In this document: positions 10,231 to 64,000 of the stretch, piece by piece
Numbering within the stretch: position 1 is the first letter of the stretch
Layout of the letters: each line of letters starts with the position of its first letter
Source: Wuchereria bancrofti
Taxonomy: Eukaryota > Nematoda > Chromadorea > Rhabditida > Onchocercidae
Assembly (NCBI GenBank): GCA_005281725.1
Contig: SSBO01000009.1
Location: 7,316,303 to 7,380,302 of the forward strand
Direction: 5' to 3'
DNA: 64,000 bases
Position numbers and translations under genes: made by a program
The notes under the pieces: model-generated
The model's database searches: none
What the model saw: only the letters and a program-made list of their open reading frames with translations
What the model was told of the DNA's origin: nothing

Positions 10231-10241
10231 ATTTATAGGCG
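10231..10241 (+). promoter_or_regulatory. possible trans-splice acceptor before unc-70 start
   Basis: ATTTATAG at 10231-10238 lies three bases before the ATG at 10242. A short U-rich acceptor just ahead of the start codon with no usable upstream donor is the usual layout for SL1 trans-splicing in nematodes. It could equally be the 3' end of an ordinary intron in the 5' UTR. Confidence 0.35.
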
Positions 10242-26365: not shown

Positions 26366-26586
26366 TTGTTAGACGAAAATGGAGTACATATCTAGGATTT
26401 ACTTTAGCGAATTAAATGCCGAGGGATTCATGGTGTTGTAAGTTGTTTCATTTATGCAGAGTTGTTTTCGATTCGGAAGTTTTTATGGATTTTCCAAGAG
26501 TCAGGGATTTTTCAAGGATTTTAAGAGTCGACTTTAAATTTTTTATTAAGATTTTAAATGTATACTTCAAAAAATATTGTCTTGAC

Positions 26587-26592
26587 AATAAA
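26587..26592 (+). terminator. poly(A) signal AATAAA for unc-70
   Basis: Canonical hexamer about 220 bases after the spectrin stop codon. A second AATAAA at 27029-27034 could serve a longer 3' UTR. Confidence 0.5.
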
Positions 26593-31959: not shown

Positions 31960-31979
31960 GATTGATTGATTGATTGATT
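31960..31979. repeat. GATT microsatellite, five units
   Basis: Five perfect consecutive GATT units. Confidence 0.9.
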
Positions 31980-37201: not shown

Positions 37202-37260
37202 TTACGTCACTTACGTCAACCCCTCTTCATCAGTCCTACACCAGTCCACTTCTCACGTCA
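37202..37260. promoter_or_regulatory. cluster of CRE/ATF-like sites
   Basis: TTACGTCA occurs twice in tandem (37202-37209 and 37211-37218), and CACGTCA follows at 37254-37260. TTACGTCA is a known binding sequence of bZIP factors of the CREB/ATF class. It lies 1.6 kb before the RhoGAP start codon, so a promoter or enhancer role is an inference. Confidence 0.3.
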
Positions 37261-37475
37261 AATATCGTCCCAGTAAGTCCACATCACACGCACAGGACCA
37301 CGCAATACAGTAATTGGTCGACATATAGCTGTTATCTTTTGCTTTTTCAAATTTGCCTTCGCGGGATTTTTGAATTTTTTGTTTGAAAGTGGTTGGTAAT
37401 GCGTGTGGATTGCGCGTTGTTGTGACGTTCGAGATGATTGTTACCATCGTTTTGATTCGTTTTCTCGGGAATATA

Positions 37476-37510
37476 TTTAATGTAATAATTGAATTTTTAA
37501 TGTAATAATT
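37476..37510. repeat. 15-bp direct repeat
   Basis: TTTAATGTAATAATT occurs at 37476-37490 and again at 37496-37510. This is local slippage-type repetition in AT-rich DNA. Confidence 0.6.
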
Positions 37511-38814
37511 TTTAATGCATGAGACAACCGTGGACGTTAACTTATTGGATGAGTTGCACTGTTGGATTGTTGAATTAGTAAAATAAACTTTTTAGTCTTC
37601 GCAAAAGTTATTGTTTAATTCTTGTTAAATGTGATATTCTCGAAAGACTTGCTCTTCAGAGATAATGTTTAAACAATGCAATTTTTTGATAAATATTTGA
37701 TTTTGACTTCCAAAAGTTACTGTAACTCTCTGTTCTTTCTGTTATTAGTTCTTAACGTAATATATTGAAGAACGAAGACTACATATTCTTATAGGCTATC
37801 ATACTCATACAGTTATATGAGTATGGTACTACTAGAATGTCACTAGTTTATCAGTAAAGATTGATGTCAGTTTTAATTAATTTTTGACATCACTTTGATC
37901 TATCTAAAGCATAAGTGTTATATGTAACTTGTCCTGTCTGATGGTCACTGTAATTGACGTATTGCTTAGCACGTCTCATCACGTACCAGTTTATAAGTCA
38001 TTAGATGAGAAAGGAGGATAATTATAAGGCTGTAATTTACTCCACTCATTTTAATTCCTGTATTTAAAGTCTTTTTTTCGGGCTCTTGTCCTTGGAGACA
38101 CAACAATATACATGACTCATTTTATGCGATATTCTATTACTGCCACTGCTGTCGTTGAGATTGTTTTTGTATTTGATATTATGAAACGAAAAAGTGACAG
38201 CAGTTACAGAATGATGATATCAGAAATTAAAATGAAAGCATTAACCTCGCGTACACCAAATAGATATCTTGAACTGCTTCTAAGCGGCTGATTATTGTTT
38301 TTGATAAATAAATTTGCATATTTGAATGGCTTGAGCATTACTTATAAATGTCGAATGAATAATCTCTTCACATGATATTTTAAAAGGAGCACTAATGAGC
38401 ACTATAATTTATTCTGAATATTAAAAATTTGATTGTTACTGAAATATATGCGTACTGTAGTGTCCTTTTATTTAAGTGACATTCGTTCGTAGCAAGATGT
38501 TATAATTTTTGTTGGTTTTTATTTTAAACATTTTTGTTCAAATTAGATGCATAATTTTAAAACGTATACAATCCTTTATTGTGAAATTTGAACAATCAGG
38601 TAAACGGTCGTTCTTATTTCTAACTGCATTTTAAACTATTTAAACATTTTGATTTTCCTCCGATTATTTGTCTTCATTTTGAATATACCAATAACTGATT
38701 ACGTATGAAACTGAAAACTTTATTTCTGTTTAGGAAGGGTATATTTGTTAATCTTTCTCGAGTATTAAAATGTTACTTTTATAGTGTTCATGAATTGGAA
38801 AATTTACAAACAGT

Positions 38815-41800: not shown

Positions 41801-44800
41801 CGACGTTAGTTAAATATATATTCTGCATATTCTTGAGCATCGTAGAGTTATCGATTACTTGTAAAATTTACGTCGAACGGTAAGTTTGATTCAACCTCAG
41901 GGAACACAAATAAATAAGGTCTTTTCTGATTTGAATTTGCTAATCTCCTTTGTTTTTACGATTTATCTGCTTTCATATATCATTTCATATAGACTACACT
42001 GATTTAAAAAAGCTCTGTGCATACTCGTTGACTTCTATCAAGACGTCACAGTGAAGCTACGTCATACACTATTGCATCACCTCCAAGAGATGATATTAAC
42101 AACAAAAAAAGCTAATAACATTTAAAAAGATACCAAAAACGTGCCAATAGGACCATCTTCCCTCTTTTCTTTCTTATCTTTCATGTTATCCAGTTTTTCT
42201 ATGCCTGCTTATTTGGGAATTACCTCACTAATTTTTTTATTCTGAATCAGGTTCCGATGAATGAAATCTTTCTAATTCTTGTAAAATCCGTTCGAATAAA
42301 ATTGTCAGAGTCTTACTTTTACTTCACGATACTATTTCAGTAAAAATATCGGTGAAGCATTTCTGAAGCATAAAAACTCGGATGAAAAATTGGCAGTATC
42401 AACAATTATCAAGCGAAATTCTTCCAAGAAACTACTTCAGTCAGTCAAGGTAGGCGGCAATAAATGCATTTCGAAATTTGAAGTTGCACGCAACGAAAAT
42501 TTGGAACTGTAGTACTATATATTTTTAAATGTTCTATACTTTAAGCTATATGTTTTTTCCATTTAGATTGCTGATTCAGCTCAATCATTCCTAGAAGGTT
42601 ATTCGACTGGCAGAGTTATAGATCGCATTCACCGTCGCCATACCGCACCCGTAAAAACTAGTACGCTTTTGAAACGTAATCAGCCAAACAGCGTGACTAC
42701 TGGTTTGAAAACTCCACAATCTCGCGCACGAGGTTTTCGTTTTTAATTTTCATTTCCAGTAGTTCATAGTTCCAATTATTTCTATAGTACTGTTTTAGAT
42801 TCCCATATATAATGTATCTTTTTTTTCGTGAAATTTCGTTGCAAATGGTTTTAATATGTCAGAATTTCAGAAAGATATTCGACAACGTTAAGTTTAAGGT
42901 TGAATGGAATGGATAAGGATTCGGAGCAAAGTAAGTTCCCTTTCAGTTAAATACAAGTTCATACTGTTTTACATTATCTTATGCTGAAGTTATTTCAGTT
43001 CTGGAAAAAAAAAAGCGTCGAAGTGAAAGTTTAAGCGGTGACTCAAATGGCAAAATTTCTGTTAACGATGGTGAGGATAAGATCACAGGAATCCAAGGGA
43101 CCCAAGCTTTTAGTGCAGAAGCACTTTTGGAACAGGTATTTGATGTTATATTGTTATTGCCTTTGTACGAATCATATTTAAATTTGCTCTTCCTTACATC
43201 CTTGTTTTAATAAATGACGTAGATTTTAGAAATGTATGGAGTCACGACAGCGACGAGCTAAACGACAGAAACGACGAGAAGTGAGTGATTCTGTGCAAAC
43301 AATATCAGTGCAATGTACTGCTGAATCGACTCCAATGACTTCACTTCTGGACGATGTAACGAATGAAATAAATCGTTTAGAAAGAGATCGTAAAGTTGCA
43401 AACAAGCTGCTTAGAGATGAGGGGAATTCACTGTTATCTTTGGACACCATGGGGGAAGGTCGCGATTTGGATTCAATCTCTACAAAAGGTTGCTTTTTGC
43501 ATACTTCAAGAAAGTTTTATATGGGATTTAGATTTTTGAATAGCTGCCGTAAGCCCCTCTACAAAGAATTAATTTTCATCTGTCTCTCTTAAATACAAGG
43601 GGTCTTTAATGGGCAATGCTGCTAATTTATGCAAAGACAATCAAAACTGCAAAGCTTATGCGAAATCCAGTCTTATTTTTAACTTAAAAAAGTTATCTCA
43701 AAAGTATGCAAAACATTTTTGCAATAGGAAACGAAAATAATTTACAGAAGATATACCTCCACCATCTCTTCCATCAGTTTCTTCACCAACGAATAACTCA
43801 TCTGTGTCTGCAATCTCTTCTGTAGTGAGAGAAAATCGTGCAAGACGATCTTCACCAGATTTTTCGAAACATTCACTTTATTCACCACCAGTCAACACCA
43901 GCGTCCAGTCTGCTACTTTATTTATTAATTCATCATCTACTATCACACCTGCTTTCAACAAGACGCTACATGTGGAACCACTGAAACATATATCGAATCA
44001 ACGAAATGTCGATTCAGTTCACGGTGGTGAGGATGCTCGAGGAGTAAGCTTTTCATTACATCATATTTCTTGTCTTTCTTAATTTGAATTGTTATTTGAA
44101 AAACTTCAAAAACGACTTTTTAAAATTCTAACGAAGTCTGTACAAGTATCATGGTTAAGTTAAGAAACATTTCCTCTTTGCTGTTTGAATATCATGTGCA
44201 GCGCGAGGAGAAAGCGTTAGCTAATTTTTTTTAATTGAAAGTGAGACTTAGAATGTCTGTTTGAAAGTAACTCCCGTTCTAGCAATTGCAGGTGATCAGA
44301 AATAGGGTATGTAGTAATACGAAGTTTGGTCCTTGTTATATGCTCCATGGTCACTCATGCTTTTTTTGTGTAATTGTTTTAATTTTTCACTTTAGAATAG
44401 CATAGAAGGCAATAATCGACCAAATGATTTCGAAGAGGATTTTTCAAAGTCTGATGCCATCAAAATGCAGCTTTTAAATGCAAGAAGTGAAGATGTAAGT
44501 CCGTCCATACATGCCTTTATTTCTGGACTTTGCACAAAGTGTAATCTAAATACAGCAGAAAATAAAGTAATGACATGATTTACTATTCTCCACTCGACAG
44601 AATCTTAACATAAATTGTGCAAAACTTGAATAATTTCAGGATATAGTAGCAGGTCCTGCGTATATGTCATCAGGATTACGACCCAGTGTCTTATCTATAA
44701 AATCCAATAATCGTGGTATGGTGAGACAACGCGTCAGTCATTTCGCTCGGTTGGGAACACAAAAAACTACTCCGGAACAGGCATGCTTTTTCATTTATAA

Positions 44801-45905
44801 GATTCATCAGTATCTTGACGTGTTCATTATTTTCCAAAGTGAGATTTCGACTTTCGTGCCCATTTTATTCGAAATAGAGTAGTTTATGTTGCAGGGTTTC
44901 AAAATAGGACGTCAGTGGCAAGATGGTAAATATGCATCCTCCTCTCTTCAGAAGCTTTCTGCTCCTCCTGCGTCACATGGTCTACAACCGATTGCTGGAG
45001 GGAATGTGTCTCCACCTTCGCGAGAGATTGTAATGAGGCGAGCTAAGAAATTTGAAGGTAAGATTTTACATCTAAATAGGCAGTATGCTTGTGAGTATGT
45101 ATCAGCACATCTGACAAAACTTTCACGAAACATATAATAAAATGCATTAATCACAGAATATTCGAAATTATTTCACTGTCTGTTTATTTGACACTCTAAT
45201 ATTTATCGTGTTATCGTTAATGTGATTTTTTTCATTTGATCATGCGTGCTATCTGTCAAGTCATTGGAATGTTCACGTTTTTTATAACCATTTCTAATGA
45301 AATGTTCATTTCGTCAAATGTTATTGGTGAGATTTGTGTTGCTGCTGATTAACCCAACGATATTGTTCCAATACTACTCAAACGTTTACGAACCCATTTG
45401 GAATGATTGCCAACAAAACTCCATATTCCCTTGTTTTCAGTTAATTAATCAGATTTATTATTTTGCAATGAGGAACGGCATTAAAGCAAATTTTTCATAA
45501 CAGATAGAGATTGCAGCATTAGCGACATCGGTCGGTATGGAAGTGTGCAAGAATTTTCGTCCTGCAACACGCAACAGACTCGCAAAAATCCAAAAGCAAA
45601 ACATTTCGAAGACACCTCGTCGTTTGAGTGGAGAAATGCGAGTTATGCGACGTTCTCAAGCTAGACTTGATAAATCTCTTGAGAAACTTGCAGTCAGTCT
45701 TAGTAATCGTCGTTTACTGGGAAGATCTCCAAGCCAGTTTGGCTGCAACAAGCTTCATTTATTAAACGGAAGCAGATCAGAAGAACGACAAAGAGTTGAA
45801 CGATCACTCGTTCGAACATCATGTCATGGTGACTTGGGATATGTGAACCCATCGATAATGCCATGTGCTACGAATTTGAAAATGATACTAGAAAGAGAAG
45901 AATAA
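38815..45905 (+). CDS. RhoGAP protein, ARHGAP11A/RGA-3-like, 21 exons, about 1150 aa
   Basis: Likely stimulates GTP hydrolysis by Rho at the cell cortex, the known role of the ARHGAP11A and nematode RGA-3/4 group. The RhoGAP domain covers about residues 85-255. It starts with LRGVPVFLVDAFNFL, carries the arginine-finger motif GIFRKEG (Arg118), then LIKRFFRELKIPLF and MTVENIARVFAPSLF. The remaining 900 residues are low-complexity, Ser/Arg/Lys-rich and probably disordered, with many potential phosphosites. Exons: 38815-39017, 39147-39233, 39325-39424, 39539-39670, 39834-39947, 40191-40310, 40441-40646, 40813-40896, 40972-41132, 41314-41485, 41559-41804, 42341-42449, 42567-42732, 42871-42930, 42999-43135, 43230-43488, 43748-44043, 44396-44494, 44640-44780, 44895-45057, 45508-45905; they sum to 3453 nt. 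The first ATG is a guess: a later in-frame ATG at 38929 is possible. Introns 6 and 19 are ambiguous and may be GC-AG. The assignment to ARHGAP11A over ARHGAP19 is tentative. Confidence 0.85.
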
Positions 45906-46387
45906 AACAGAGTTACACAATCAAACCTCATATGAAGTAAATGTGAGAGTTGCTTGTATAGGTCTGATTCTTTCTGTAGCATTTATTGTACACAAAACTT
46001 CTCTTTTTTAATTCGATGCTAACTTTAACAGCGAAAAATCTTTAGCTTTAAAAAAATCATCTTTAACAATTATGGGGTCGTTAATGTGTAAATCTTTGAA
46101 TTATTAATCATAAGAACGATATTGTGAAACCTTGCTGCTTTTATCATATATTCTTCATTTATGAACGATAATTATAAAATGTTTATGAGATTTTATTTCT
46201 CTCGTTTTAAATTTTCACCTCATACAATTTAAATACAATAAATATTTGATTAGTACACGCAAAATTTTCAAAATTCTTCAACGTGTTTTGGCGTACTGAT
46301 TCCTTCCGTTTATTTTTTTATTATTTATTTATTTTTCCTTTTGTTGAACGTATTTATCTTTGTTATTTTGTTAAATTCGTGAAACAG
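45906..46387. other. 3' flank of the RhoGAP gene
   Basis: AT-rich 3' UTR and flank. An AATAAA overlaps the stop codon itself (45901-45906) and is too early to be useful; a second at 46238-46243 is the better poly(A) candidate. Nothing else is seen. Confidence 0.5.
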
Positions 46388-46816
46388 CAAAGGTAGAGTA
46401 TCGAAAAAACGACATGTCAGGTATAAGGTAAGCATGTGTTACAAATTTTTATCAGTTTAAGAAATGAGTGATCAGAAATTTGGGGTTCTATATATGATTT
46501 ATATTAAAAAGTTTTGAAATTTCATTCCATTATGCACTGATGAAATATTTTTAAAGATTTTGCATGAATTTTTAGCAGTTAAATTAATCTGTAGATAATT
46601 CCAGAATTAACCGAAATAACGGAACATTCCTTGTCACCGAACGGGTCGCCACGACACCGTAGCATTCTTCATTCCTTGTCGATCTCATCATCCATTACTG
46701 CGCGATCTCCAATTATTTATGTTTCCACAACGAAACCACGACGGCCAAAAAATCCATTCATGGACGATACTGACACTACTACTGGCACTAGTTCAGCTTC
46801 ATCGAATAAGAAATGA
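46388..46816 (+). CDS. two coding-like exons of unclear parentage (partial)
   Basis: Exon 46388-46427 (acceptor GAAACAG, donor GTAAGC) joins in frame to exon 46595-46816, which ends in TGA. The reading is KGRVSKKRHVRYK followed by 73 Ser/Thr/Pro/Arg-rich residues ending SSASSNKK. The chain has no ATG and needs an upstream exon ending two bases into a codon. None of the last ten RhoGAP exons ends that way; of the earlier ones, exons 7, 8, 10 and 11 do. It may be an alternative 3' end of the RhoGAP gene, the end of another gene on this strand, or a chance frame. The Ser-rich basic style resembles the RhoGAP tail. Confidence 0.4.
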
Positions 46817-47758
46817 GGGATGGTAGACTCAGGCTGAAATGTTGAGATACCTGAAGTTTTTTTGTATAGTTGTTTTCTCGCTTATACTTGAAGTGATCTG
46901 TATTTAACAGTGTTTTGTTCCGTCCTATTTTTAATTAAACGTTGGTAACTAGTATCCTCTATCAAAACCCAAGAGTTTGTTCTCACTGTGCATTATCAAC
47001 GTTTCATTTGGTTCATTTCTTTTGTAATTTAAATTACGTAGTATACAAGAATATCCGGTACCGAGCCTGCTGTCCCAAAATATTAGTTGCTGACATTTTG
47101 GTTTAGTTTACATCTACACTAGCACTGCTTCACAAGAAATTAATTTTCCAACTGATGTAGGATTTCAGGTTTATTGGCACCTACCTCTCATCTAATTACT
47201 GCATAGCGCGTTAGTTTCCCAAATCTGTTGTCCTGCGCTCATTTGTTTCTCCTTGTTAAGTATTCCATTTATTTGTACATAATAAGGTGCAGTCTTTTGA
47301 TGCATTCTCATTTCCAGTAATTTCGCAATGTTGGAGAAGTGAATTAAAATTACTCTTCATCTAATCTTGCTTATAAAAGAATTGCTGCGAAAGTGCTTTG
47401 AAAGATGAAATCTAAATGATATGTCATCGGTTCTTCATGTTCTGCTCATCTTTCGCAAAATTACACATAATTTTCCGTGCTTACCAAAATTGGAAAAATG
47501 TAAGACTTTTCTACCAAAGTATTTAAAATGGCTGGAGTTCAACATTTAGTGGATAAGAATTTCCCTAAGAACAGTTCCAAGTGGTAACTTTAGGAAAGAC
47601 GTCAGCCATCACTGCGGAGATAAGTAGGAAGTTGCTCTTAACAATCAAATTCTGTTTCCTGCCACATTTACATGTACTTCCACTCATTATCACTGTGGTG
47701 AGAGAATAACTGTGACCCAACCTAGTGTTTTATTCAGCATTTAATAAAACAGATATAG
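46817..47758. other. convergent intergenic region
   Basis: Space between the plus-strand RhoGAP region and the minus-strand gene ending at 47759. It contains a minus-strand AATAAA (47729-47734) about 25 bases after that gene's stop. Otherwise I see nothing. Confidence 0.5.
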
Positions 47759-48754
47759 TTATGATGTCTGCATAGGCAATGAAGCCGAAGCCGAACCAAC
47801 TAGTTTGCTATCTTCTGCAGCTATTTGTGCTAGAAACGGAAGATTTTTTGTTTTGATTTCCTCGAGACTTTTTGGGCGCTGCCATGGTTTGATTTTATCT
47901 GTTGTTAATACACTTGTTGATCGTTTTTGTACCTAAAAGAAGGAGTCAAATTTAGCATTACTTCAGTATGAAGAAAATATTATCATAAAAGACTATTCCA
48001 ACACAAGAGGAAAGAAATTGCTTTCTCCGCAGTAAGCCTCCTACAAATACAACAGTTTTTAGTGCACACAGAGTAAAACAAAGTTTTGAGAAGCGTAACC
48101 ATCTTTCGTAAATGCGGAGTCACGAAACAATAAATATATAATATAAGTGAAGCTCAATTATAAGAAATGCAAATTAACAAATTTAGATACTTCAGCACAC
48201 TGCAAATATAATGAAATGTGTACTGTGAAATAATAGGCAGTGCAGACTGATGCAACATTTATTCCATCAACAGCTCCTTCAAAACGTTTCCAATACCATC
48301 CAATAAGTCCTAGCAAGACAGCAGTGCGATCCTGAAATTCATTTAGGATATTTTTTTATTTCACTCCTTTGTCTAACGACAATTGCATTTGCTTACACTA
48401 CCGAAAATAACTTTTTTTTTCTTTTTTTAAATTCCAAAGCTTTGTGATATTTGACTTGATATGACTTGAAAAACTCATACAAATGACTGCGGCAGCCTTT
48501 ATGCAGAAGGAGATGAATGTAGCAAAAAATGAAGAATGTGAAATTGCTTAATAAATGAACCAGCACTTATTCTGACAGGAGCAGATCATAATTTAATTTT
48601 CGCTGATAAGATAACTCACCCAAGTCATCATTTGTTCGCTGCATCTGATCTGATAGCACAGTTCCTTCGCATCTTTTCTATCTAATGAGTAATAAGTAAC
48701 ATAAGCTAGCGTACTCAACGGTCCAACAACAAAACTTGCCAGAAAAAATCGTCC
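47759..48754 (-). CDS. small probable membrane protein, unrecognised, 5' end undefined
   Basis: Three exons in the same phase: 48754-48620, 48331-48224 and 47932-47759, giving 138 residues and a stop. The first begins GRFFLASFVVGPLSTLAYV (hydrophobic, probable membrane segment). The second has LLGLIGWYW and INVASVCTAYYF (further hydrophobic stretches, the first followed by KRFEGAVDG). The last is a polar tail with KPWQRPKSLEEIK. At least one more upstream exon is needed. A short piece ending near 48810, reading SFGTTKS, would join in phase after a 56-bp intron starting GTAATG, but its own start is unclear. I do not recognise the family; size and style suggest a small organelle or ER membrane protein. 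Confidence 0.55.
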
Positions 48755-48879
48755 CTGTAAGTGGAATAAAATTCTTTCGAAGGAATTTACTGATATTGTC
48801 CCATCATTACCGATTTTGTAGTTCCAAATGACACATCTAGCAACACTTTTTTTTACAATCTTTGTATAGAACAGCAATA

Positions 48880-49838
48880 AATCTAAAAAAAAGAAAATTA
48901 AGAAACGTTCAAGAAACTAACCCAATTATTCACAGTACATGGGAATATAGTACATTTCATTATTCATTTTATTTATTATTACTCCGAAACGGTTTTTAAA
49001 CCCATACAAGGTTATTTGTGTATACCTGTATTTTTCGACACTTGCTTCTAATTATTTTAGCCGAATTATTGGTGGTTGTTTCAGGAGTCAAGTTTCTTAG
49101 AAGAAAGAGCCGGTATATTGGATGTGTTATGCAGCCACCTAAAAGGATGGTATCTTTAAAGAAAAAATTGAAAATGATAGAATTTGAAAAGAAAAACTAG
49201 AAAGACCTGAAATACAATGTCCAAAACAGTTTAATGCTGAGCATCGACACCTGAAAATCGTGACAAAATTTCCAGACAATATTCTAAACATACCAACAAA
49301 CGACAAAAATTCAGCGGCCTTAAAAGTCCCAAAAATTGTCAATTCAGTGTACGGAGATGGGACTGATGTCAAATTATCTACTGTCAATTCGGATCGATGA
49401 AACTGCGAAAAATTGAACCACCATGGTCCCAAACCAAACATTTAAAGCCAAGCAACGTGTCGACTCCTGAATTGCAAAAGCTTACATCCTACGCCACATT
49501 CCCAATGCTTGTCTTTCCGAAAAATCAGAAAAATTAGCGGAAATCTTAACATCTAATACAATATGATTTTGTAGAGAAGCAGGTCACCATGGACTAAAAA
49601 GTCCGGCAAAATATCTTAGAAAAGGCATTTTGACTCTAGAAGGCAACTCTAGAAGATAAGGCAACTTGAATTATGTCTACCACTTACGCAACTGGCAATT
49701 AAAAGACAATTGTTCAGTCTAGTAATTTGGAAAAAAAGGAGAATCTTTTTCATAAATTTCTTTTAAGGTTTCACAGAAAGCAGTATTTGGAAAGTTTTAG
49801 CAATAGACAAATGGAAAAACTACATGTTTCAGTTTAAA
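48880..49838. other. region between the membrane-protein gene and BMS1
   Basis: AT-rich sequence holding the BMS1 3' flank. A plus-strand open stretch near 49200-49400 lacks a start codon and splice partners, so I do not call it a gene. Confidence 0.4.
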
Positions 49839-49839
49839 T

Positions 49840-49845
49840 TTTATT
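49840..49845 (-). terminator. poly(A) signal AATAAA for BMS1
   Basis: TTTATT on the plus strand, i.e. AATAAA on the coding strand, about 95 bases after the BMS1 stop codon. Confidence 0.55.
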
Positions 49846-49938
49846 CAACCAAAAATAAGGTAGAACAACAAAAAACAATGGCTTAAAACACAAAAATCCA
49901 AAGAATTTCCTGCATTCAGAAGTTGCTAGAAAACATCC

Positions 49939-52900
49939 TTATTTACTATTGCTAACTGAATCCAGTGCTTTGCGCAACTTCACCTGTTCTCGCTTGGAAA
50001 ATGAACGGCAAATCTTCTTTTTTGTCTTTTTTATTCCATATTCTCGTTGTACTTCCAACGCTGCCATTTCCTGTAGAAATCTAAGTTAAATGAGAACTGA
50101 TGAGAAAAAGAAGAGTGAATTACCCAACTAATGTTTAAAAAATTACATTGTGCTGAAAAACAAGTGCACAGAATTGTTACTCAACAACGATCTTAACACT
50201 GGAAATAGTAGAATGAAAGAACACTAGCTGTACGATGATACATGTCTTTAGTAGGCATAGCGAATTTACCATAAACACATTCATTCCATCAGAAGTAAAG
50301 GCCGTCACAAAAACCACCATAATTTCTGTACTCTTAATTAAGGAAATTCCACAGAGTTGCATGGAAAACTTCTATACAACAAAAAACTTACTATGCGATG
50401 TTTTTTGACACGTTGTGCCGTTGCTTTTCTCTCTATCCTCACTTTTTCCATATGTACTGTATCTAGTATTTCCATGAATCGATTTATCTGAAGTACTATT
50501 ATAGACCAATTCATAATCATCTTGAAATTATTTTAGATAATATTTAGATAAAATAAAAATTGTTTAATAATACAAGATATAAAAATTTGTATAGGAAACA
50601 CGAGTTCACCCTGCTTTCATGCGGCTCTAATATAACTGCACTATGTTTCTCTACAAGCTTGTCACCCGTCTTCTTGATTTCTTTCGCGACTTTTGGTTTT
50701 AATCGATATGGTAGTTGTTTCTGGAGTGTTTTTGGAATAAGCAACGGTGCCGGATTAAACGGTCGTCTTTCCACTGGCTGCAAAAAGAAAATTGTTTTAA
50801 ATAATACAAGATAAAAATTGATAAGGAAAAGTGTTCTATCATAATAATGTTCACAAATTAAGAAAAATTGTCAAAAAAACTCTTGAAAACAAAGTCCTTA
50901 CTTTGTAAAATGAATCCATCTTTAGCGGCGGCTTCAAACCCATTTCAAAACGTAGGCGACCTACTGTTCGCATACCCTCCCATTCTTGATTCAATGGTAA
51001 TAAAAGATCTGTTATAGGAGTATAGAAATGAGGTACAGGCACAGATATCTGGAAACAAAATGTAATGCAATACTAATTCTTAAATTAGGAGATAAAAAAC
51101 GAAATCAGTATCATATGCTGTAATTTTTAAATCAATACTTGTTGAAGAAAAAGATAAAAGAATTATTCACCCAAGCGCGAAGGAAAACGATATCGCTCAT
51201 GAGAATTTTGTCCTCAAAAGTTCCCCGAAACGCACCAGCTGGCTCACGTAACGCTTTTTTGATTTGACCACGAATACCACTAACTGTGCGTATAATACCG
51301 CCTTCAAATTTTGCTACTTCCAAGACAGTGTTAAACATTCCCTGAAAGAGTCAAGCCATGCAATTATATCTCCGAAAACAGCATAGTTCAAGAAAGTTGC
51401 GTTTGAAGAAGTTGCAGCATAAACAAATGTAGTGAAATAATAAATACGGCGAATAAACAACTCAAAAAGAAACAGAGGAACCTTGACGAAAGCCGACTTC
51501 TTGAATATCCGATAAGGATGACCAATAAGCTTCAGTTTCTTCATCACTTGGAAGGCTTTATCTAGATTCAATACAACACCTGTTGCAGCAATCCTAAAGC
51601 CTTTCTGAAAGAAGATGAACATGATACTTATCGTAAAATATTCAGCTTTATTTTTATGAAATCATTTGCAATTTAAATAAATTCTGCGTTTAAAATATAA
51701 TCTCATGTGAGGACCACAAATTAAATTTTTTTAACCCATATACTAAAATCTCGTTATCATATGTGTTTAGTCCAACTCATATATTTATTATTTACAAACC
51801 ATATTTCTGCTTAACGATTGTACAGCAAGGAATCCTGTGTTCTGTGCTGTTATTGGTCCCCAAAAGACTGCCTGACAGAACATATGCTCTGGCGTGTATT
51901 TCAAGAAACGCTGTCTCATGTTATGGTCCTGTATCGAATATATGACCTGGAACCTCAAAATTATTTAAAGGTTACTCATATACAGTAAGATCTATTATCA
52001 AAAAAGAAAAAAGGAAAAATCGAGAAAAATTTTAGACTTCGAAACAATAATATTTCAAGACAATATTGTAAAATCTAAAACAATTTTACTTGAATTTTCT
52101 TCCATCAGAATATGTAATGTACAAAGTCTATGAAGAAACAAAGAGAAGAAACGACTAACAACAGTTTGAAATCGCCTCCAACCACATGATATAATAAGAG
52201 GATCTCGTGACTTCAACAACCGCTCATACCATCTGTGTTTCTTCACCCGCACCTGGAAATCAAATTTTCAGTATGAATATGAAGATTTGTGACTTACAAA
52301 AACTCATAATATAATAAAATGCAACAATAGAACCATTTACGAATAACATCCATGACAAAAGCAAAATGAAAGAAAATGTACTTGTACAGAACCAATATTC
52401 TGTTCACCGGTAAGAAGACCACCTATAATACATGGTCTGGTTGGATCGAAATGCTGTAAAAATTCTACATGTACATCTTCGAATTCTATTCGAACATATA
52501 ACCCCGGTCGGAAACCTTCTAACTGTAGCCGAGCTGTTTCATCCATCTCTTCGAAGGCTGACTTATTGAGCTGGAAGAAATTACTAATTTAATTTCTCAA
52601 TTGGTTTGAATCAAAAACTTGTTTAGTTCTACAGTAACAGAATAATCTTTAGTTTGCTAATTAACTACTTGACAATCGCAAATAGCTTCTGTTGATTTAA
52701 ACCAAATTAAATCCGAAAGTATTACATACTAAATACTAAAAAAATATAGCATACCTTCGACTGCTCTTCAAGCTCTTCTTTCAGTTGTACATAATGTTTG
52801 TTGGCTTCGTCATATTCAGCGTTGAAACGGCTTTTCAGCTTTTCTTTGTCAATTTTTCTTTTTTTAGCTGCTTCTTCGTCACTTCTCCCTGCTATTGCTG

Positions 52901-55900
52901 CAGGATCCATATTTTCTTCAGTTTCGTCAACATGGTCAATCTCATCTTTACTAGCTGTAAAAAGAAAATTGGAAAACTTGAAAACTTTTATTTTATCACC
53001 TGACACGATAGAAGAAACAACACTTGCCTTCGATAGAAGTGCCGTAATCTTTATCGTTTATACCAGAATCTCCTCTTTCACCAGAAATATGCTTTTCTGA
53101 AAAGAAAGTTGATTATCAAGTGACCCAGTAAGGCCAAAATCGATAGATCGAACAATAATGGCAGTGTTCTTCAGAACTGCTGCACAACTCAAACCTATTT
53201 CACTCTATTTCTATAATTTTACTTTATAACATTACCATCTTCTAATTGCATAGCAGCATCTTCGTCAGGATTCCAATTTCCCGTAACAAAGCAATCCGCA
53301 ATCGATGCACGAATCTAAATGAAACAAGACTCAATGCAATCACAAAAAGGACAAAAAACAATTTTCACTATGAAAATTCATGTTTCCTGACTTTTTAAAT
53401 AAACTTTTCATATATTAGTAAGAAATTATAAAAGCATTACTATTTTTACTACATTTAATGTTAAACATTTAATACGAAATAAACATTTAACGAAATAAAC
53501 ATGCATGAACAAACCTCAAAATCATCCCAATCACGTTGATTTAATAGCTGTTGAGATGTAATTGTTGACGATTTATGATAGAGAAAGCCATCCTCCTGTA
53601 AAAAATATATAGTAATAATGAATAAAATATCCACTGTACTTAAGCATGTCATTAGATTCCAACAGTAAAGTGATAAAATAAAAATTCCAATTTCTTGAAA
53701 CAATAACTTAAAAAGACTAACCAAGTTATCAATAGTTTTCTTGGATCGAGTCAAGACTTTAAAAAGGCCACCAAGTACTTGATCTTGTTCTTCTTCATTC
53801 TGGTCATGCAGGTCTAACGATAAGGAATGATTATTACCACATTACTCATCTTTCGCTCAATAACTAGAGTTTCACGTTAATTTCAAATATTTGTTTCAAA
53901 AAAAAAGAAAAAAAAAAACATCGCAATCTAATTTAATGTTATATTCTTAAAGCTTAACATTGGTCGTATTCTATGCGACAGACGGCTGTGTCAGCGTTTC
54001 TCATACAAAAACAACTAACAAAAGAAGGTATGGAAATATATTTCGGGACACCATGTATTTATCACTGTGGGAGAAAAACTCACCAGAATCAGAATATACA
54101 ACTTTAGCATAATTCAATCTCGTCGATTTTTTCTCGCTGTATAATAATTTTGCTCGCATACAAAGTTCAGACCAACGCTTAATGTCCTTTTCTTCAGTAC
54201 CTTTCTCATTTTTTTCATCCTCAGTTACATCACTTTCAAAGTCTAAATCGTCAAAGTCACTCGATTCTTCACCAATGCTTTCCATTTCGTCCTTCGTATA
54301 ACAATCTAATTACAGAAAACATCTGGTTAAAAAGTTAGTGGTTGCCATGAATTATCTTCCATTACTGGAAGATAATTTTTTCATAATTTTTTACACCATG
54401 TATTTATCACAGTGGAAGAAAAACTCACCAGAAAAAAAAATTTTTTTAAAGTTTATGAAATCTTTTGAGTTTCCTGAACAAATTAATTAAAATCTCTCAC
54501 CACCATCATCCATTTCACTTCCACTCTCGCTATGAGGTATAGTGACTTGGGAATTTGTAACCACTTTCAATGCTGTTTTATGCATCTTATCATCGATACT
54601 CTCTTTAACATTTTCCAATACTTCAACGAGTTCGTGTCGAGCTTTCTTATATGCATGTGAACCACCCCTTTCAATATAAATAGCATCCTGAAGCAAAACA
54701 CTGTTTGAAAAACAAGAGCTGTGCAGGAACCTATACAAATGAAAAAGAGAATTTCTGTTCTGAAGAGATACATCGAATTAATAGAAAGAGAACGAAATGA
54801 TAAATAGAAAATTTCCAGAAAGGCTCTGTAAACGTTAAAAATATTCGTTCCAAAACCAAATACCGAAACTCAAGAATTTCGTCAAATCGTAGCATCAGCG
54901 AGAATTTTAGTAAATTACCATTTAACATTATCTGTTAATGCATTTTCAAATTTTGCGCTTTCTGATTAACCATACAGCGACAAAAACAATCATCTATCAA
55001 ATTATCCCTTTCAAAGCCTGCCAAAAAACTTCGAGACTATTGGATAAAGATATTTAAATTCATCTAAATTAGGATATCCATGAATTATGGACAAAAAAAA
55101 AAAAAATGCGACAAAAAGTTACTTTGTCGTAAACGATACCACCAAGACCAGAAAACGGAGCATAAATAATACGCTCTTTTTCATTCAGTGAACGTTTCAT
55201 CTTTTCTTTTGATGGCAACGGACACGGATCCGGTAAAACTGTCACCTATAAGTAATTGAAATGTTTTATAATATCGTTGCCGGCTACTTCCAGGAAAAAA
55301 TAAGACTAAGTAAAAAAAAACAGTTAAATTACGAGACAATCCAAATATACATCTTTTATCGTTAAATCGCCTATTCCAGGAATATGCACAGCAGAACGAT
55401 TTTTGAGGAACGTCCCACGTACCCAACCATACAACGAAATCGTACGGTTGGCCAATGGCTTTTCGCGAAGTAACTTAAATGATTGAAATTATTAATTCTA
55501 AAATAATATGGTCTTATTTCGAAATAAACAATATGCTTAGTTAGCCAATATGTGCTTACACCAACAGAAAATAAACTGTTTTCTAATCGTTTTTGTCCAA
55601 TTTAACATGAAACATATATGTATAATCATAACTGTTAGCGAAACTTCAAAATTTGAATTGTCTTTATGAATCTAATATTCAGAATGCAGTATTCAGCCAA
55701 AATAACCAAAGAACTTTATTTTCCGCCCATGTTAATATACCTCTGGGTCGGTCAAATCTTCGTAACGATCACAATAAATATACGGATGACTAGTTCGCCA
55801 CAGTAAAGGACGAAACTTCGTGACAGATATGAAACGTGCAAGATTTCGGACTTCATTTTTTAAATATTGCTCATTGATCATTCCCGACAGGTAAAATAGT

Positions 55901-58240
55901 TTTGCACCCTGTAAAGATGATACACCACACTATCAATTCTGAGATAAGAATGAGCAGCAAGATAGAGATGAAATTGTAAAATAACTTATATGTTATACGT
56001 CCAGTATTACATATACTGAAAGTTATATATTGACTTCTCGGAAGAAACTTTTGTCAATCTTAGTTAGTCTCAGCTTTATTATTTTTTTGAGCACTTAGTT
56101 ACAGGTCTCATCCTCATCACGACTAAATTCCCGAAATTATGCTTATCCATTCAAAACTTTGCATAACAATGAGGTGTTCAGACCAATCATTAAAGTAATA
56201 ACATGTCCTTCAAAATAATAACCTGGTAAACTTCCGTCCAAAACCGATGCTTCAGCAATTTCTTGGTACGTTTCAATTTCTCCTTCTTTTTAATTACATC
56301 GAGATGACTAAGAACACCCATGACTCGAGGCATCCCATGTACTTGACATATGTTTAGAAATTCGAATGTCTCCATCTCAAATCCGTAAGAAGCATCCACC
56401 ATCAACAAAACCTATAGTTATTTAACAATGGGAATCAAAAGTGAAAAATCAATTTCCAAACAAACTTACTATATTACTTAGTACATTAACTTCTACACTT
56501 TTGTCATTTTATTGAAATGTGAGAACGATAACACTTTATCGTTCCAAAATATGAGACATAAGTTATTGAAACCTTGACAAGTCAACGAATGCTTAAAGAT
56601 ATCACTGTCTACTTTATAGCAGAAAGCCTTAGAACATCTGTATGGCTGTAGAATAATCACTGAATATATAGGCTTTAAAAGTTATTTTACAAGGATCATT
56701 ACTAGAAGATCTCGGTGACTAATGCTAAGCAAAATATTTTTCAGGTTTATACTTTGCAACCGTAATACTAATATAGTTGATGAAAAGGAAAAGAATTACA
56801 AGATCAACAACTTTCGCAATATCGATCATAGAGTTTAAATCATTATTCACTTCGACGAATGTTACTCGTCGAGTTTTGCCAGTAACAATTGTGATTGGTC
56901 CACGAATTTCAGTTATGGTATGTCTCACATAATGCTTTACTAAACATCGCAGCAACGTACTTTTTCCAACCTCAAGAAAAGAACCGATAGGATGAAAATA
57001 TCCAACCTAAGAGCATTCATTCGGATTACATACAATATAAAAGAAAACCAAACTGAGTAGTTCCAACTCGTGGCAGTATAGTGTTTTGAGTCATAACCAT
57101 GGATCCACTGATTAATTCTTAGTTATAAATTATGCTCACCTTTGAAGGACCAACGATTGCAACAATGACTGGAGGTGGCTCGACAGGAGTGCGATCGACT
57201 ACCGGTATATGTTTCTTCTTTTCATCCTTATCTGCTGCTCTGAAAAAGTACTAACAAACTCCAAAGATTTAGAACTATTCATCATAAACTGAGATTTGAA
57301 AGCAGTTCAAGCCTTTTCATACGAACAACTGGAACATTTATCACTTGAAAAGATTTCCATAATTTTAACAAAAGGAATACCTGCGAATAGCGCGACTTGC
57401 TTTAACAGCAGACTGAAACGTGAAAGCCTTTGCGTTAACTCCACTTCCTTTTTTAACAGCTTTTTTCTTCGCTTTTCCACCAACTTTGTGTACTAAATAG
57501 TTTCGTGTCACTAGTATTGAAAACAAATATTGAGAACAATCGAAACCAAAGTTTACTTTCATGAGGGCACTCCCCTAAATTTGTTATTTAGTATACAAGC
57601 AGTTTTCTGCTTCTGCTAACTCAATTCAGGAGACCATAGAAAATGCCACAGTTAATTTCAGTGGTGAGAAAGTTACTCTGCACTGTGACGGCAGAACCGA
57701 TTCAGGGGTTCATGCTTTAGGACAAGTTGCTCATTTCGATATGGAAAGGAAATTTGAGCTTTATGCAATAAGAAACGCCATAAATTATCACTTAAAATCA
57801 ATCCCTGTAGTTGTACTGAATGCAGAAACTGTAGATAACACATTTCACTCACAATTTTCAGCACTTAAAAAACTGATTGATTTTATATTATAGGGTTGTC
57901 TTCTTTACTGTACGTCACTATATATTTCATGCACTTAAAGAACTGATTGAATTACAGTTCTCTGATATGAATAACAGTTTTTCTAACGCCTTAAAACGCA
58001 AATCATAGCACCAGAATACACATCTTTAGTCACTTCAACAAACAATGAAAAGTTAAGCCAAACTCAGCAGTTACGGGAAAACTTTACAGTCAACTTACCA
58101 CACTTGCAAAAAGAAAATCTTGTCAACCTGTATAGCAGGTACACTATGAAATAGCTACCTTGTTCACGTAAAACTTTATCAAACATACTACCTCGATGGA
58201 CTTTGTGATCCGATTTGCCAGTATTTTCATCCACTGCCAT
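49939..58240 (-). CDS. BMS1: BMS1, GTPase of the small-subunit processome, complete, 24 exons, about 1076 aa
   Basis: Nucleolar GTPase that partners Rcl1 in early 18S pre-rRNA processing. The N-terminus starts [16 protein letters not shown] and is lysine-rich. The P-loop GPSKVGKS (residues 84-91) spans exons 3 and 4, followed by [13 protein letters not shown] and the SHLD motif. A middle AARP2-type domain ([20 protein letters not shown]) precedes a short acidic region. The C-terminal block carries family signatures such as [35 protein letters not shown] and [16 protein letters not shown]. Exons, 5' to 3': 58240-58192, 57492-57381, 57239-57140, 56970-56800, 56411-56223, 55908-55741, 55473-55351, 55245-55123, 54687-54501, 54305-54084, 53813-53722, 53595-53515, 53314-53236, 53096-53028, 52954-52755, 52570-52382, 52252-52160, 51946-51800, 51604-51482, 51341-51171, 51048-50902, 50777-50610, 50487-50392, 50070-49939; sum 3231 nt. 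It is about 200 residues shorter than the human protein, mostly in the acidic region. Intron 14 looks GC-AG; intron 1 holds bacterial DNA. Confidence 0.95.
53463..53500. repeat. short imperfect tandem repeat in BMS1 intron 12
   Basis: AAACATTTAATACGAAAT is followed directly by AAACATTTAACGAAAT and a partial third copy. This is AT-rich intronic slippage, with no function implied. Confidence 0.55.
54048..54088. repeat. 41-bp direct repeat, copy A, across BMS1 exon 10 donor
   Basis: Matches copy B at 54393-54433 in 39 of 41 positions. Copy A contains the last five bases of BMS1 exon 10 and its GTGAGT donor (minus strand), plus the start of intron 10. Confidence 0.85.
54351..54376. repeat. perfect 10-bp inverted repeat in BMS1 intron 9
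   Basis: ATTATCTTCC (54351-54360) and GGAAGATAAT (54367-54376) are exact reverse complements around a 6-base loop. It sits next to repeat copy B. Confidence 0.6.
54393..54433. repeat. 41-bp direct repeat, copy B, in BMS1 intron 9
   Basis: Second copy of the 54048-54088 sequence in the same orientation. It lies upstream of exon 10 in transcription order and preserves the exon-end-plus-donor context (TTCTG then GTGAGT), so it carries a decoy 5' splice site inside intron 9. Confidence 0.85.
57597..57893 (+). pseudogene. truA: Wolbachia-type truA fragment in BMS1 intron 1
   Basis: Open frame with no ATG that matches bacterial tRNA pseudouridine synthase A over 89 codons (57597-57863), then runs into a stop at 57891. 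Visible hallmarks are SIQETIEN, the active-site motif GRTDSGVHA (catalytic Asp codon at 57699-57701), LGQVAHFD, and FHSQFSA where full TruA continues with a KKR-type motif. This covers roughly residues 25-115 of a protein of about 250 aa; both ends are missing. The motif is of bacterial type (eukaryotic PUS enzymes have GRTDKGVSA), and the style fits Wolbachia, the filarial endosymbiont. It is antisense to BMS1 and spliced out with intron 1, so it cannot make an active enzyme. Confidence 0.85.
57861..57950 (+). repeat. 20-bp near-direct repeat at the truA junction
   Basis: GCACTTAAAAAACTGATTGA (57861-57880) recurs as GCACTTAAAGAACTGATTGA (57931-57950), with one mismatch. The first copy starts exactly where TruA similarity ends, and the second starts the next open segment. 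This suggests a join with filler DNA or local duplication during integration. Confidence 0.7.
57928..58154 (+). pseudogene. possible second bacterial-derived segment, frameshifted
   Basis: The open frame from 57928 ([18 protein letters not shown]) runs to a stop at 58006-58008. Shifting by one base at about 58005 opens a further 49 codons ([14 protein letters not shown] and on to NLYSRYTMK) up to a stop at 58152-58154. The composition looks like a broken bacterial gene next to the truA fragment. I do not recognise the protein. It could instead be plain intronic sequence with chance openness. Confidence 0.35.
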
Positions 58241-59587
58241 TACTTTACAACCTTACCGAAACAGGCTGGAAATAAGATTTATTAAAAATATCCTATCCCA
58301 TATGAACAGATATAATTGAATCAACTTTTGCTGCCGTCCTTAACAAACAAATCGACATGCCAATCCTTACACCTGCTGACATACGAATTGCGAAGGAAGC
58401 AATTATCAAGATCGGCTGAAATTTGATACATAAGTTCTGTTCACTTGAAATCCATTTTAGAATAGCCATGAAAGAATTCAGGATTCCTTCAGGAGTTTTA
58501 TACACATAACTAAGCTGTAACCCTCTAATAAAGAAATAAAAGCGCCTAGATCCAAACATAACATTTCCGGGAAAACATGAGTTGGAAAGTTTATCATGCA
58601 TAAATAACCTAAGCACAACGAGAAAAAACAATTCTTTACAACTTGAAATCAGCTCAAATTTCAGAAAAAGAAAAATCCATAGCGAGTAAAAGGAAAAGCC
58701 GGATTTCTACAAGAAATTAATGACAGGAAATTTTGAGAGTGACCAACTCAAGTTCAACAAAACTTCAAAAACTTTGAAACTAATATTGAGTTTTCGGAAT
58801 TTTAAAAATCAACAAATCCTGAAGAGTGAGTATATAAAATCAACTGATTTTTTTCGAAAGCTTATAGTATATATAATGACCTACAATAAAAAAGTTACTA
58901 GGAATCACCATTGGATGAACTTTTGTTTGGTACTAGGGGAATTGATGTATTTCCAAATTTGTAAGAACATAACAATTTTAACTGAGGCTCTCCTCAACTT
59001 CTCATTTCAACTATGTAGTAATCGGTCTATTCCATACCCAATAACAAAAATGAATTTTGACAATTCACAAATGGTTGTTTCTAGAACTTTTAATTTGTAC
59101 AAAGATAGAATAGAGTAATTAACAGGTCCAGTTCGATTTGAAAGGAACAAAAGCGAATCAACACAAAACGAAGAGAAAGGACTGCAGCGAAGCAGACTTT
59201 AAGTTCAACTTCATCAACAATTCACGCAATAAATACAAAAAAGTTTCAATCTCTATACCAACCCATACAAATCTTATCCGTAACGAACAAGTATATAATA
59301 AAATTTTCATTATAATAAATATACATGAAGCAGAATTCAAATGGTCTAAAACTGTAGCAGTAATATGAAGCAAGTGATACTGTTAATGTTGAATTATAGC
59401 AGATATGGTTTTTCAAAATATTAGGAAAGCCCAGACGAAAATAATAAAAAATATAAAACATCATCTTTTCTTCCGAATAATGTACAAAAAAGAGCCAAAG
59501 AAATCAAATGAGCGATATCAGCAACCATACTACACAGCGATATTTAAACATGATATAATAAATTAGTTTTTCACATAAAGTTTAACT
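58241..59587. other. region between BMS1 start and ankyrin-gene end
   Basis: Upstream flank of BMS1 and 3' flank of the ankyrin gene. Open frames on both strands (58293-58631 minus, 58720-59118 plus) match no family I know. A promoter for BMS1 probably lies near 58250-58600, but I see no specific element. Confidence 0.4.
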
Positions 59588-59593
59588 TTTATT
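59588..59593 (-). terminator. poly(A) signal AATAAA for the ankyrin gene
   Basis: TTTATT on the plus strand about 170 bases after the stop of the ankyrin-repeat gene. Confidence 0.4.
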
Positions 59594-59763
59594 TAAATAA
59601 ATCATTAGAAAAACTTCGGCATTAAAAACCTTCAGCACAAGAAACTCATTACTTATTACTAAACAAGCCATGTAAAAAAAAACAAACTATTAAGCACCTT
59701 AACTGTAAAAACGGAAAATACAACTATGTTCGAAAATACATGTAATTCTTATATATATAAACC

Positions 59764-62700
59764 TCAGTCCATTTTGGTCTTGTTGTTCGAGTGAGTTACA
59801 AAACCCCGCAGTTCATTATAATGATCCAAGTCTGGCGGACCACATGCAAAAGCCTGTACTGCAAGCGTAATGTGAGGAGCTTGAAAGCGTAGTTCTTCTA
59901 ATTCTACCATTAAGTGGAGTGTGTATGAATCTAAAAAATTGCAAATTTCAATTTGGAACCTCACATGCTTTGGAAAATAAAAAACAACATAAGTTTAAGA
60001 TGCAACTTACCGACTTCAATATTTTCCGGCAGTTTATAGACATAAAAATATCCATTATGAGGTTTTGCAAGGGCTGACTTGATACCAATACTCCATTTTG
60101 AGCAACTTAGTCTGAAACAGTTTCTAACTTGGAAATGGAGATGAAGATGATCTTCATAAGTTTTTTTTTCTAAATATTTGGGAGAATCTTTGAACTGAAA
60201 ACCAAAACTCTCAATGAAAACATAGTAAATTATACAAGTGAACAGTGTGAGTGAAAACAAACCAGTAAGAACTTACAGTGGTCTCGATGGAAGTAATTTA
60301 ACAACAAAGCCATTTACATTTTGCATCTTTGCACAAAATATCTGTGGATTAGAAGCATCTGCTATTCTATCTTCCCCTTTGTAGAACGTTGGTACAATGA
60401 AAAGTAACTTTAAAAAATTTATTAAACAAAAAAATTTGTTAAGATTTACTAAACACACAATGTAAAACAATTATTATTTACACATATGTATGCTTAATAT
60501 ACAGTAAGTTTGCTAATATTTAGCTCCAGAGACTTACCATTAACGGACATTTCTTCAGCTGTGGGTTAGCATTGCGTGTCTTCGAAATATTTATATGAAT
60601 TTTACGCTAAAAATGCACATATTAGATAAAACGATGAACTTTATACTAAAAAAAGTGTGCTGATCAGACGAAACAGTGAACTTAAATCCCTAAAGTGTCA
60701 TAAAGAATTTATAATGTAGCTATGACATACTATCTCGAAGGTTTCACTATGGTCCACCTAAGATTCCTTTTATATAAAACGATGCAGTAGAAAGTTCGAC
60801 TAAATAGAAGCGAATAAAAAGCTGAGCTGGAAAAAAAACCAATTTATTAACAAATGCTAAGATTATGGATTTCAAACAAAATTCACATTTTTGGTAGTGA
60901 AATTCCGGGATGCATCTCTTCCTGAATCGCATGCTTTTGATAATCTTGCAAAATGCAAATCAGAAATAGCATGTACGGGTGTCCAAACACCTCTCACATA
61001 CTTTCTGACCCACTGCATAAATATTTTTTCCAGTGCATTAACTCGCGCGTGCAGGTACTCACATATCTATAATGTCTAACTGCTCTCTTGACCTTCGATT
61101 CTTTAGTATCCTTATCACATCATAAAATTCCAGTAAGCAAAATTCAAACATATACTCACACATAATCTGCGAAATGAAACATACCGATGTAGTTGTTGGT
61201 GAACAGCCTGCAAGTTGTAGAGGTGTTGCCGAACGCTCTCTTAATGATATGTCTGCTCCATACCACAAAAGCAATTTCACCTGTAATGAAGCCACTTTTT
61301 ATCTCCCAACAGGATTTTCAACAAATACGAATTAATTCTCTCGTTATGAAACAGTTTAAAACAATTTTATTCCAACCCTTTAACTTTGTGTTATTTAACG
61401 ACAGAATTCAAGATAAAACTTCGAAAAAACTTCTAGAAAATTGTAACCTCACCCCATAAGACACAGGAAAAAATCACAAAATTGAGGTGATTAAGATGAA
61501 AAAAAATTTTTGTTATACTAAAACAAAACGTACCATTTCTAAATTATTCCTCATAATTGCGTAATGTATTGGTGCACGCCCAGAATGGTCGAAGAAATCT
61601 GGCCAGGCTCCTGAAGAACTGCAGTCAATATTTGAATAACCAAATAAAAATTTTATGAAATTACTGAGTCAATAAACATTTGGAATGAAGAAAATGATTC
61701 TTTCGATTTTAAGACAATTTATGTTTTTTTTTTTACAATTTATGAACCTACTCCTAAAAGCTTATATTTTAGAAAGTGAAGAACATTTTTTCTTTATTCT
61801 CTGCGCTACTTATATATCAACAAGTGTTTGTGCAGATTCATGTGAAAATGCATACCAAAATCCATCAAAGCTTGCATTTGACAAGGCTGCCCAGTACCAG
61901 CTGCCAAATGCAAAGCAGTTTTTCCTGTTCTTTTTGTAGATGTAGCAAGTAAAATTCTTCGACTTTTCCACGGTAACATACTCAAAATTATTTTAATCAA
62001 TCTGAAAAACATCAAAAAAGATCTGTAAAACCAATTCTATTTTTATGTGGTGAGATAAGTTAAAAAATCAAATTAGGGTTTTATCACAAAAACAGATAAA
62101 AATAAAATTGGTATTCCTTACTCTTGCAAGTGATAATCATTCCTTTACTGCCCACGTCAAGTAGTAAGATGCAGTAGAAAAAATTATTTATCATGCAATC
62201 GACTATGTTTCGCTTTGAAGCTACTAATTATTGAAGTTATTAAAATAGACTAGCCTCAACCGCTAAGAATTATGAAGAACAAATTATTTCATTCTGAACA
62301 GATCGTTAAGAAAATTGGAAAGTAATTAAAACCTGCAATAACCGTGGTTTCTCATACTACATGGACGGTCGGTATTTTTGGTTGGTGAAAGAAGATGCAA
62401 AATAGATGTATTCTCTGATTTATCAAAGAACGCACAGATAACATTCTGAAAAGCTAAATATTTATATTCTTTAATCCCATCGAAATGAAAATTTGTGACA
62501 CTTCAGTGTTTCACTAAAACACCAGTGAATAAAATAGTAACTACTCGTCCAATGACTGATTGCCACTAATTAAGTGATTCAAATATTACTAACGTTCATC
62601 ACATGCTCCTTCAAATGATGTCCAGACATACGTTTATAATAATCACAACCAGCATTCCTTTTCAAAATTTGCAAAATGCAGTTAAACATAATCATGAATT

Positions 62701-63889
62701 CTTCAACGTTACCATCAACAGCTGCGTTATAAAACTTTCGTATCCAATGAGTGAAACGCTGGGCAAACTGAAACTTAAAATTGTGTCTTGAAAATGCAAT
62801 TAAAGAATCTTGCAAAAAAGCACTTCAGGGTTCGTATTAAGTACAACTGATGATGCATATTCAAAATTGCCATATAAGTATTTGATTTCAGGAGGTTTTA
62901 TTTGGTAAGCATGACTTTATAAAATTCGAACAACTCGCCATCTTTAAAGACAGTGCTAGTGTCTTAGTCAAGTATATTGTGATGCAAGTAAGTAATTAAT
63001 ATCGAGGATTATTATTACTAAAAAAAGACTTCGTGACGAAGTTGGTTTCGCTATCCTTTGCGTATGAACGCCTTAAAACTGTGTAAATATTGAAAAAATC
63101 CAGCGTAATAGAAAAATGATTAAATCGTCAAAATATATATATGTATATATACTATGCCTTGAATATCAACCTACCCTATTGCTGGTGTCAGCCATATACA
63201 ATAAATTCGACGTCTCCATTCCATCGATGCTCATATCTTTTCTTACCATCCTGAAAACCTCGAATAGAACAACCAATCTTATCAAAAGTAAGAAACTTGG
63301 ATATGAAGCTTTTCTAAAATCAAGCAAATGAAGATAAAATCAAACCAGGCTCCCAGTTTTGGACAAGTACCCATAACACTATCATTCAGTACCTGAAATT
63401 ACTTCACGAAATTAAGGTATAATTTATGCGAAGTGAGGTAGTCTTGTTTTTCATTTAACAATTATGTATGTAAAAAAATGACTAAGTCGTCAAAATGTAA
63501 TAAAGAAAAATACTATGTATTTCAACAAAATAAATAATCATCTTACATCTCATATACAACATTCTGATACAGCATCACTAATGTATATAAACTGAAAAAC
63601 GCTTATTAAATTAGTAATAAACTAAAGCCAATATTTATAATAAGTGAGAGTAATGGTAACCGATCACTTCCAGTTCTCTTAACAAATCTGGAATAAAATT
63701 TGGTTTCCAAGACAAGTTTTTTAGAATACATGAGATTTATAAACTTCTCATGAAGTCGGTGAATTAAATAAAACATATCCAACAACCAACCTCTACTGTT
63801 CCACTTTTTGTACCTTCATTGACTGTGCATAAAAGGTTCCTTTCATTGGAAAACATTTCATTTTGATCAGATGGCATGTCTCGTTTGTC
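59764..63889 (-). CDS. ankyrin-repeat protein with unrecognised C-terminal half (5' end probably outside window)
   Basis: The visible exons give 532 residues and a stop. Ankyrin repeats occupy about residues 195-275: GKTALHLAAGTGQPCQMQALMDFG, then HSGRAPIHYAIMRNNLEMVKLLLWYGADI, then SATPLQLAG. A more divergent helical part before them (FYNAAVDGNVEEFMIMF) may be an extra repeat. After residue 276 comes a basic helix (VNALEKIFMQWVRKYVRG), then about 200 residues with probable beta strands (KMQNVNGFVVKLL, LHLHFQVRNCF, YTLHLMVELEELRFQ) that I cannot place. Exons: 63889-63791, 63392-63346, 63250-63175, 62767-62594, 62445-62333, 62001-61856, 61610-61534, 61280-61185, 61066-60887, 60757-60731, 60606-60538, 60407-60277, 60207-60011, 59930-59764; sum 1599 nt. 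The 27-base exon and the acceptors at 61066 and 60207 are weak but keep the frame. Ankyrin content suggests a binding adaptor; the partner is unknown. Confidence 0.7.
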
Positions 63890-64000
63890 CTGAAAAAACT
63901 TTTGGTGAGTCAAACGAATTTAAGTTCTAAGGTTAAAGTTGTTGAAATAATTTCCCTTTGCAAATGGATAGATCATATCATCTACGCATGCGAAGGACGG
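63890..64000. other. window end, probable intron and exon edge of the ankyrin gene
   Basis: On the minus strand a donor-like GTAGAT begins at about 63985, so the last 15 bases may be the end of another upstream exon. This is too short to judge. Confidence 0.3.

Follow-up and report, generated by a model that had tools for sequence, protein, structure and literature searches.

Nuclear Wolbachia insertions (nuwts) are a well-documented class of sequence in filarial worms, and the closest described cases come from the lymphatic filariae. According to the main text of PMC3849323, fragments of supergroup D Wolbachia genes are present in the nuclear genome of Brugia malayi, they are highly similar to wBm, and some of their junctions fall in introns or UTRs (549 reads, against 2343 at an even share). 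A survey of filarial nuwts in 22 species (PMC12693587) includes the Wuchereria bancrofti assembly GCA_005281725.1; as stated in its main text, nuwts of supergroup D occur frequently in Brugia and W. bancrofti, and the Wolbachia of Litomosoides brasiliensis and the symbiont of W. bancrofti both belong to supergroup D. The main text of this survey contains neither truA nor pseudouridine nor intron, and its supplementary tables may list the locus described here. In the main text of PMC3849323, supplements apart, pseudouridine and BMS1 are absent and the string 'trua' occurs by chance in a reference alone.

In this work we analysed 64,000 nucleotides of the same W. bancrofti assembly (contig SSBO01000009.1, positions 7,316,303 to 7,380,302, hereafter the window), in which a piece of a Wolbachia truA gene lies on the plus strand within the first intron of BMS1. 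We are highly confident that this insert is a nuwt, that is, a truA piece of about 250 bp from a supergroup D Wolbachia, which was caught in a break of the germ line within BMS1 intron 1, in a worm of the Wuchereria/Brugia clade and has been decaying since. It resembles the B. malayi nuwts (PMC3849323) in being a supergroup D gene fragment in a lymphatic filarial nuclear genome; in contrast to those described in that main text as highly similar to wBm, it is short and differs by about 10% from the nearest Wolbachia compared. An intron is a less usual but documented site for nuwts, since the intron and UTR junctions counted in B. malayi are below an even share. The insert is an ordinary nuwt of the known class, without sign of function; it adds one fossil to that class and illustrates how short a nuwt within an intron can be.

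The first-pass annotation had assigned 89 codons at 57597-57893 to TruA. The frame stands, as the stop-to-stop stretch 57579-57893 on the plus strand is open over 104 codons and holds the motif GRTDSGVHA, but clear truA homology is confined to 57612..57863. These positions align without a gap, over 84 codons, with codons 23-106 of the 245 of Wolbachia truA (tRNA pseudouridine 38-40 synthase). Upstream of 57611 the similarity ends, with the exception of an AAGCAG shared with truA three bases out of register, and 57597..57611 may thus be regarded as an uncertain left edge; downstream of 57863 it is lost within a few bases, so the tail of the frame as first noted (about nine codons) is not truA. 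When the whole window was compared by blastn with the regions around truA from 21 Wolbachia loci, 57611-57872 matched truA of wLbra, the Wolbachia of Li. brasiliensis, with 89% identity and an E value of 4e-95, in agreement with the Wolbachia affinity initially proposed. Over the 252 aligned bases the wLbra gene differs from the insert at 25 (90.1% identity), and the runner-up among the 37 Wolbachia genes compared reaches 86.5%; wLbra is the closest within this set, outside of which, as far as the identities show, truA of wWb and wBm lie. The stretch 57500-58260, used as a query, matched 37 of 41 Wolbachia genomes, once in each and in the truA stretch, and gave no match in the other four. A larger Wolbachia block across the intron was rejected, since the truA part alone of this query matches in the 37 genomes.

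At the protein level the fragment passes the cut-off of the TruA model PF01416 (E 1.9e-7), and it is recognized by TIGR00071 with an E value of 4.4e-16 and 59.3 bits, below the full-length cut-off of 142.85; a protein search with the fragment as query returned 9 matches, all of them lacking a source name. The GRTD motif, which we take to be catalytic in TruA, is retained. Most of the Wolbachia genes (29/37) read GRTDAGVHA, and at the position of the Ser of the insert one gene (L039) also has Ser and seven have Thr or Lys, so this Ser alone is no mark of decay. Compared with Wolbachia truA, the insert is truncated at both ends, has no start codon and resides in a nuclear contig of the worm. It lacks some two thirds of the gene, with the start and the C-terminal half among the missing parts; no ATG is found in frame upstream of the homology, the first one being the Met of DMERKF inside the fragment. 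Lacking a start and the C-terminal half of the protein, it is not a complete functional TruA.

The surroundings of the insert belong to BMS1, a ribosome-assembly gene, which runs on the minus strand. Its exon 1 (58192..58240, with the ATG at 58240 and donor GTAGTA), exon 2 (57381..57492, acceptor TTTAG, donor GTATTC) and exon 3 (57140..57239, acceptor TTTTTCAG, donor GTGAGC, ending in ...VGPSK) were delimited by their splice sites and by matches to BMS1 proteins, and they join in frame at GT/AG sites. The spliced N-terminus, made of exons 1-3 plus the first part of exon 4, is similar to PDB chains that bear the name BMS1, in 7mq9 (E 3.7e-39) and 5jpq (E 1.5e-33), presumably the human and the yeast protein, respectively. 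Farther along the gene, a Pfam scan of five stretches gave AARP2CN or RIBIOP_C in three and no domain match in two. Joining of exons 1 and 2 leaves an intron of 699 bp (57493..58191), in which the truA piece lies antisense, separated by 118 bp from exon 2 and by 328 bp from exon 1. The placement and the orientation given by the first-pass annotation were thereby confirmed, and host sequence with canonical splice sites flanks the insert on both sides.

The insert is carried by a contig of 12,704,880 bases in an assembly of 86.5 Mb and 108 contigs. When this assembly was searched with Wolbachia TruA, the fragment in the BMS1 intron was the sole result: the piece of codons 23-106 was found once, and no full-length truA was found. 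A eukaryotic nuclear gene as the best match, the finding named beforehand as speaking against a transfer, was not encountered in the host assembly. The worm's own PUS-family gene was rejected as the source on the same search and on the 89-90% DNA identity to Wolbachia truA. An assembly artefact, a scrap of the living Wolbachia misjoined into a worm contig, we consider highly improbable, because the searches of the assembly showed a single copy, located on a 12.7 Mb contig, and revealed no full-length truA, BMS1 exons are near on either side, and the insert carries five changes at columns that are invariant across 37 Wolbachia genes.

A tree built from the insert and 37 Wolbachia truA fragments places the former inside the Wolbachia diversity as the sister of wLbra, with support of 98/97. 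Since wLbra and the symbiont of W. bancrofti are both of supergroup D, the insert stems from the supergroup carried by the host today. The transfer of Wolbachia DNA into the nucleus, as suggested at first reading, is thus supported by the identity of 89-90%, by this nested position, by the divergence of the insert and by its boundaries in BMS1. Its terminal branch (0.097) is threefold that of wLbra (0.030). We counted 15 private changes on it; the number of insert-specific changes varies with the outgroup (16, 15, 17, 18, 18, 13, 12 and 16 with eight outgroups). Five of the 15 hit columns without variation among the 37 Wolbachia genes; for the Wolbachia tips taken together, 29 of 415 private changes fall in otherwise invariant columns (binomial 0.003), and for the insert 4.7 would be expected without constraint. 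By codon position the private changes of the insert are distributed 6:4:5, those of the summed Wolbachia tips 111:74:230. The excess at positions 1 and 2 (10/15 vs 185/415) is weak, with p 0.07, or p 0.02 against the pairwise share, and equally flat counts were obtained for three Wolbachia tips (L034 6:3:6, L031 6:3:4 and L041 6:4:5).

All 27 residues that do not vary among the 37 Wolbachia proteins are preserved in the insert, and about 3.3 changed residues would be expected from 15 neutral changes (95% range 1-7). Part of the insert branch may therefore predate the insertion, as older Wolbachia divergence under selection. The fragment looks relaxed, and the insertion may fall at any point of the branch. 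The insert could serve as a datable marker, its presence or absence in Brugia species and in W. bancrofti isolates giving the time of insertion.

The open frame had been ascribed to recent transfer or to chance, and of these two chance fares better: the probability that the frame stays open is 0.69, 0.64, 0.55 and 0.48 after 12, 15, 20 and 25 random changes, respectively, so no selection is needed for its openness under the 15 neutral changes, and recency agrees poorly with a distance of about 10% from the nearest relative. These figures bear also on the idea that the worm transcribes the antisense fragment or makes use of it, as a peptide or as an antisense RNA acting on BMS1. The open 104 codons, the unchanged invariant residues and the transcription of nuwts in B. 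malayi announced by the title of PMC3849323 speak for such a role; yet the frame has its first ATG inside the fragment, about one third of TruA is present, openness is expected by chance, and invariant nucleotide columns have changed at the neutral rate, all of which makes a functional or regulatory element scarcely credible. The insert is probably silent, and most likely it does nothing and is removed with the intron by splicing.

The two ends of the insert look different. No clear scar could be recognized in the alignment at the left junction. At the right junction the end of the insert, TTTTCAGCA, continues into CTTAAAAAACTGATTGATTT, and TTTCATGCACTTAAAGAACTGATTGAATT stands 70 bp farther on, so that a direct duplication of 23 bp is formed. 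Its first copy (57861..57883, plus strand) is joined to the insert end via GCA, and the second (57931..57953, plus strand) is taken as the host template; the two copies are identical at 21 of 23 sites. Among 300 random sequences with the neighbour frequencies of the intron the best repeat scored 19 and none was as good as 21/23. A degenerate pattern covering both copies occurred at 12 places of the assembly, two without mismatch, both of them here, and ten with 3 mismatches; no further site of the 23-mer turned up in the assembly at fewer than 3 mismatches. A dispersed worm repeat was rejected as its source, as all the ten other matches have 3 mismatches.

The duplication might be the templated-insertion scar of a break repair, and the insert would have been captured during end joining. 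According to this model, the insert end TTTTCAGCA would pair through a few bases with TTTCATGCA of the host, the paired end would be extended on the host flank, copying about 20 nt and thus creating the 23-bp duplication, and the extended end would finally be rejoined on the upstream side of the template, about 47 bp away from it; these steps resemble polymerase-theta-mediated end joining. Among the transposon-break deletions examined in germ cells of C. elegans (PMC4490562), 24% carried inserts copied from nearby, and none did without polq-1. The combination of microhomology with an insert copied from the flank is seen at the right junction and at the left there is none, thus the model is built on one junction. 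We offer only tentatively, as a possibility somewhat short of even, that the right junction keeps a polymerase-theta scar and exposes the capture of symbiont DNA in filarial germ-line breaks.

Alternatively, the nuwt would be real and the duplication unrelated to it, having arisen in the intron earlier or later than the insertion. Such independence would fit the two sites at which the copies differ and the left side without a matching scar, while it leaves to coincidence that one copy adjoins the last truA base with GCA common to both, and that the 23-mer is absent elsewhere in the assembly at fewer than 3 mismatches; we regard it as doubtful, though of real weight. If the scar reading is true, the pair of 23-mers with its 21 identical sites would be a rough insertion clock that is independent of the Wolbachia sequence, and the junction points to a route of symbiont DNA into worm chromosomes that can be tested.

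Other stretches with a likeness to Wolbachia or organelle DNA were also recorded. Positions 4001-64000 of the window were compared with three Wolbachia genomes, with no more than 40 candidates scored per search, and the following holds among the matches listed: 44001-64000 gave truA alone, 24001-44000 gave 29358-29488 and one match of 36 bp, and 4001-24000 gave none. The stretch 29358-29485 is 79% identical to a wLbra gene at the 5' end of the latter; by its sequence this gene looks like one for an NAD-dependent epimerase-type protein. With gaps at 13 of 138 alignment columns, the stretch is shorter and more decayed than the truA insert. The 36-bp match (41922-41957) has 92% identity to an AT-rich stretch of another Wolbachia genome (G009), the fetched piece of which has no frame above 100 codons, and may have arisen by chance.

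Elsewhere in the assembly, a COX1-like stretch on a large contig (C12:17728820-17729935, L044) is open over 406 codons in the invertebrate mitochondrial code. Among the best 120 of 7999 candidates scored, its nearest is a cluster with the label Brugia timori (95%, covering 98% of the query), and W. bancrofti proteins match with 96% over 36% and 68% over 97%. The stretch could be a mitochondrial copy that entered the nucleus recently, or else a join made in the assembly.

A search of the worm's own genome with the 6.3 kb wLbra truA region gave matches on two contigs, C1 (8,081,425-8,081,513) and C9 (8,267,929-8,267,985 and 8,268,048-8,268,123). The stretch on C1 (L054:1926-2014) is 84% identical, along 89 bp, with the edge of that region. 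The matches on C9 (L053:3871-4133) correspond to the 3' half of truA together with the sequence that follows it, with 70-85% identity and gaps, about 894 kb from the insert in the BMS1 intron. Judged from this alignment, the C9 stretch is a separate and far more decayed nuwt, and it provides a yardstick for older insertions.
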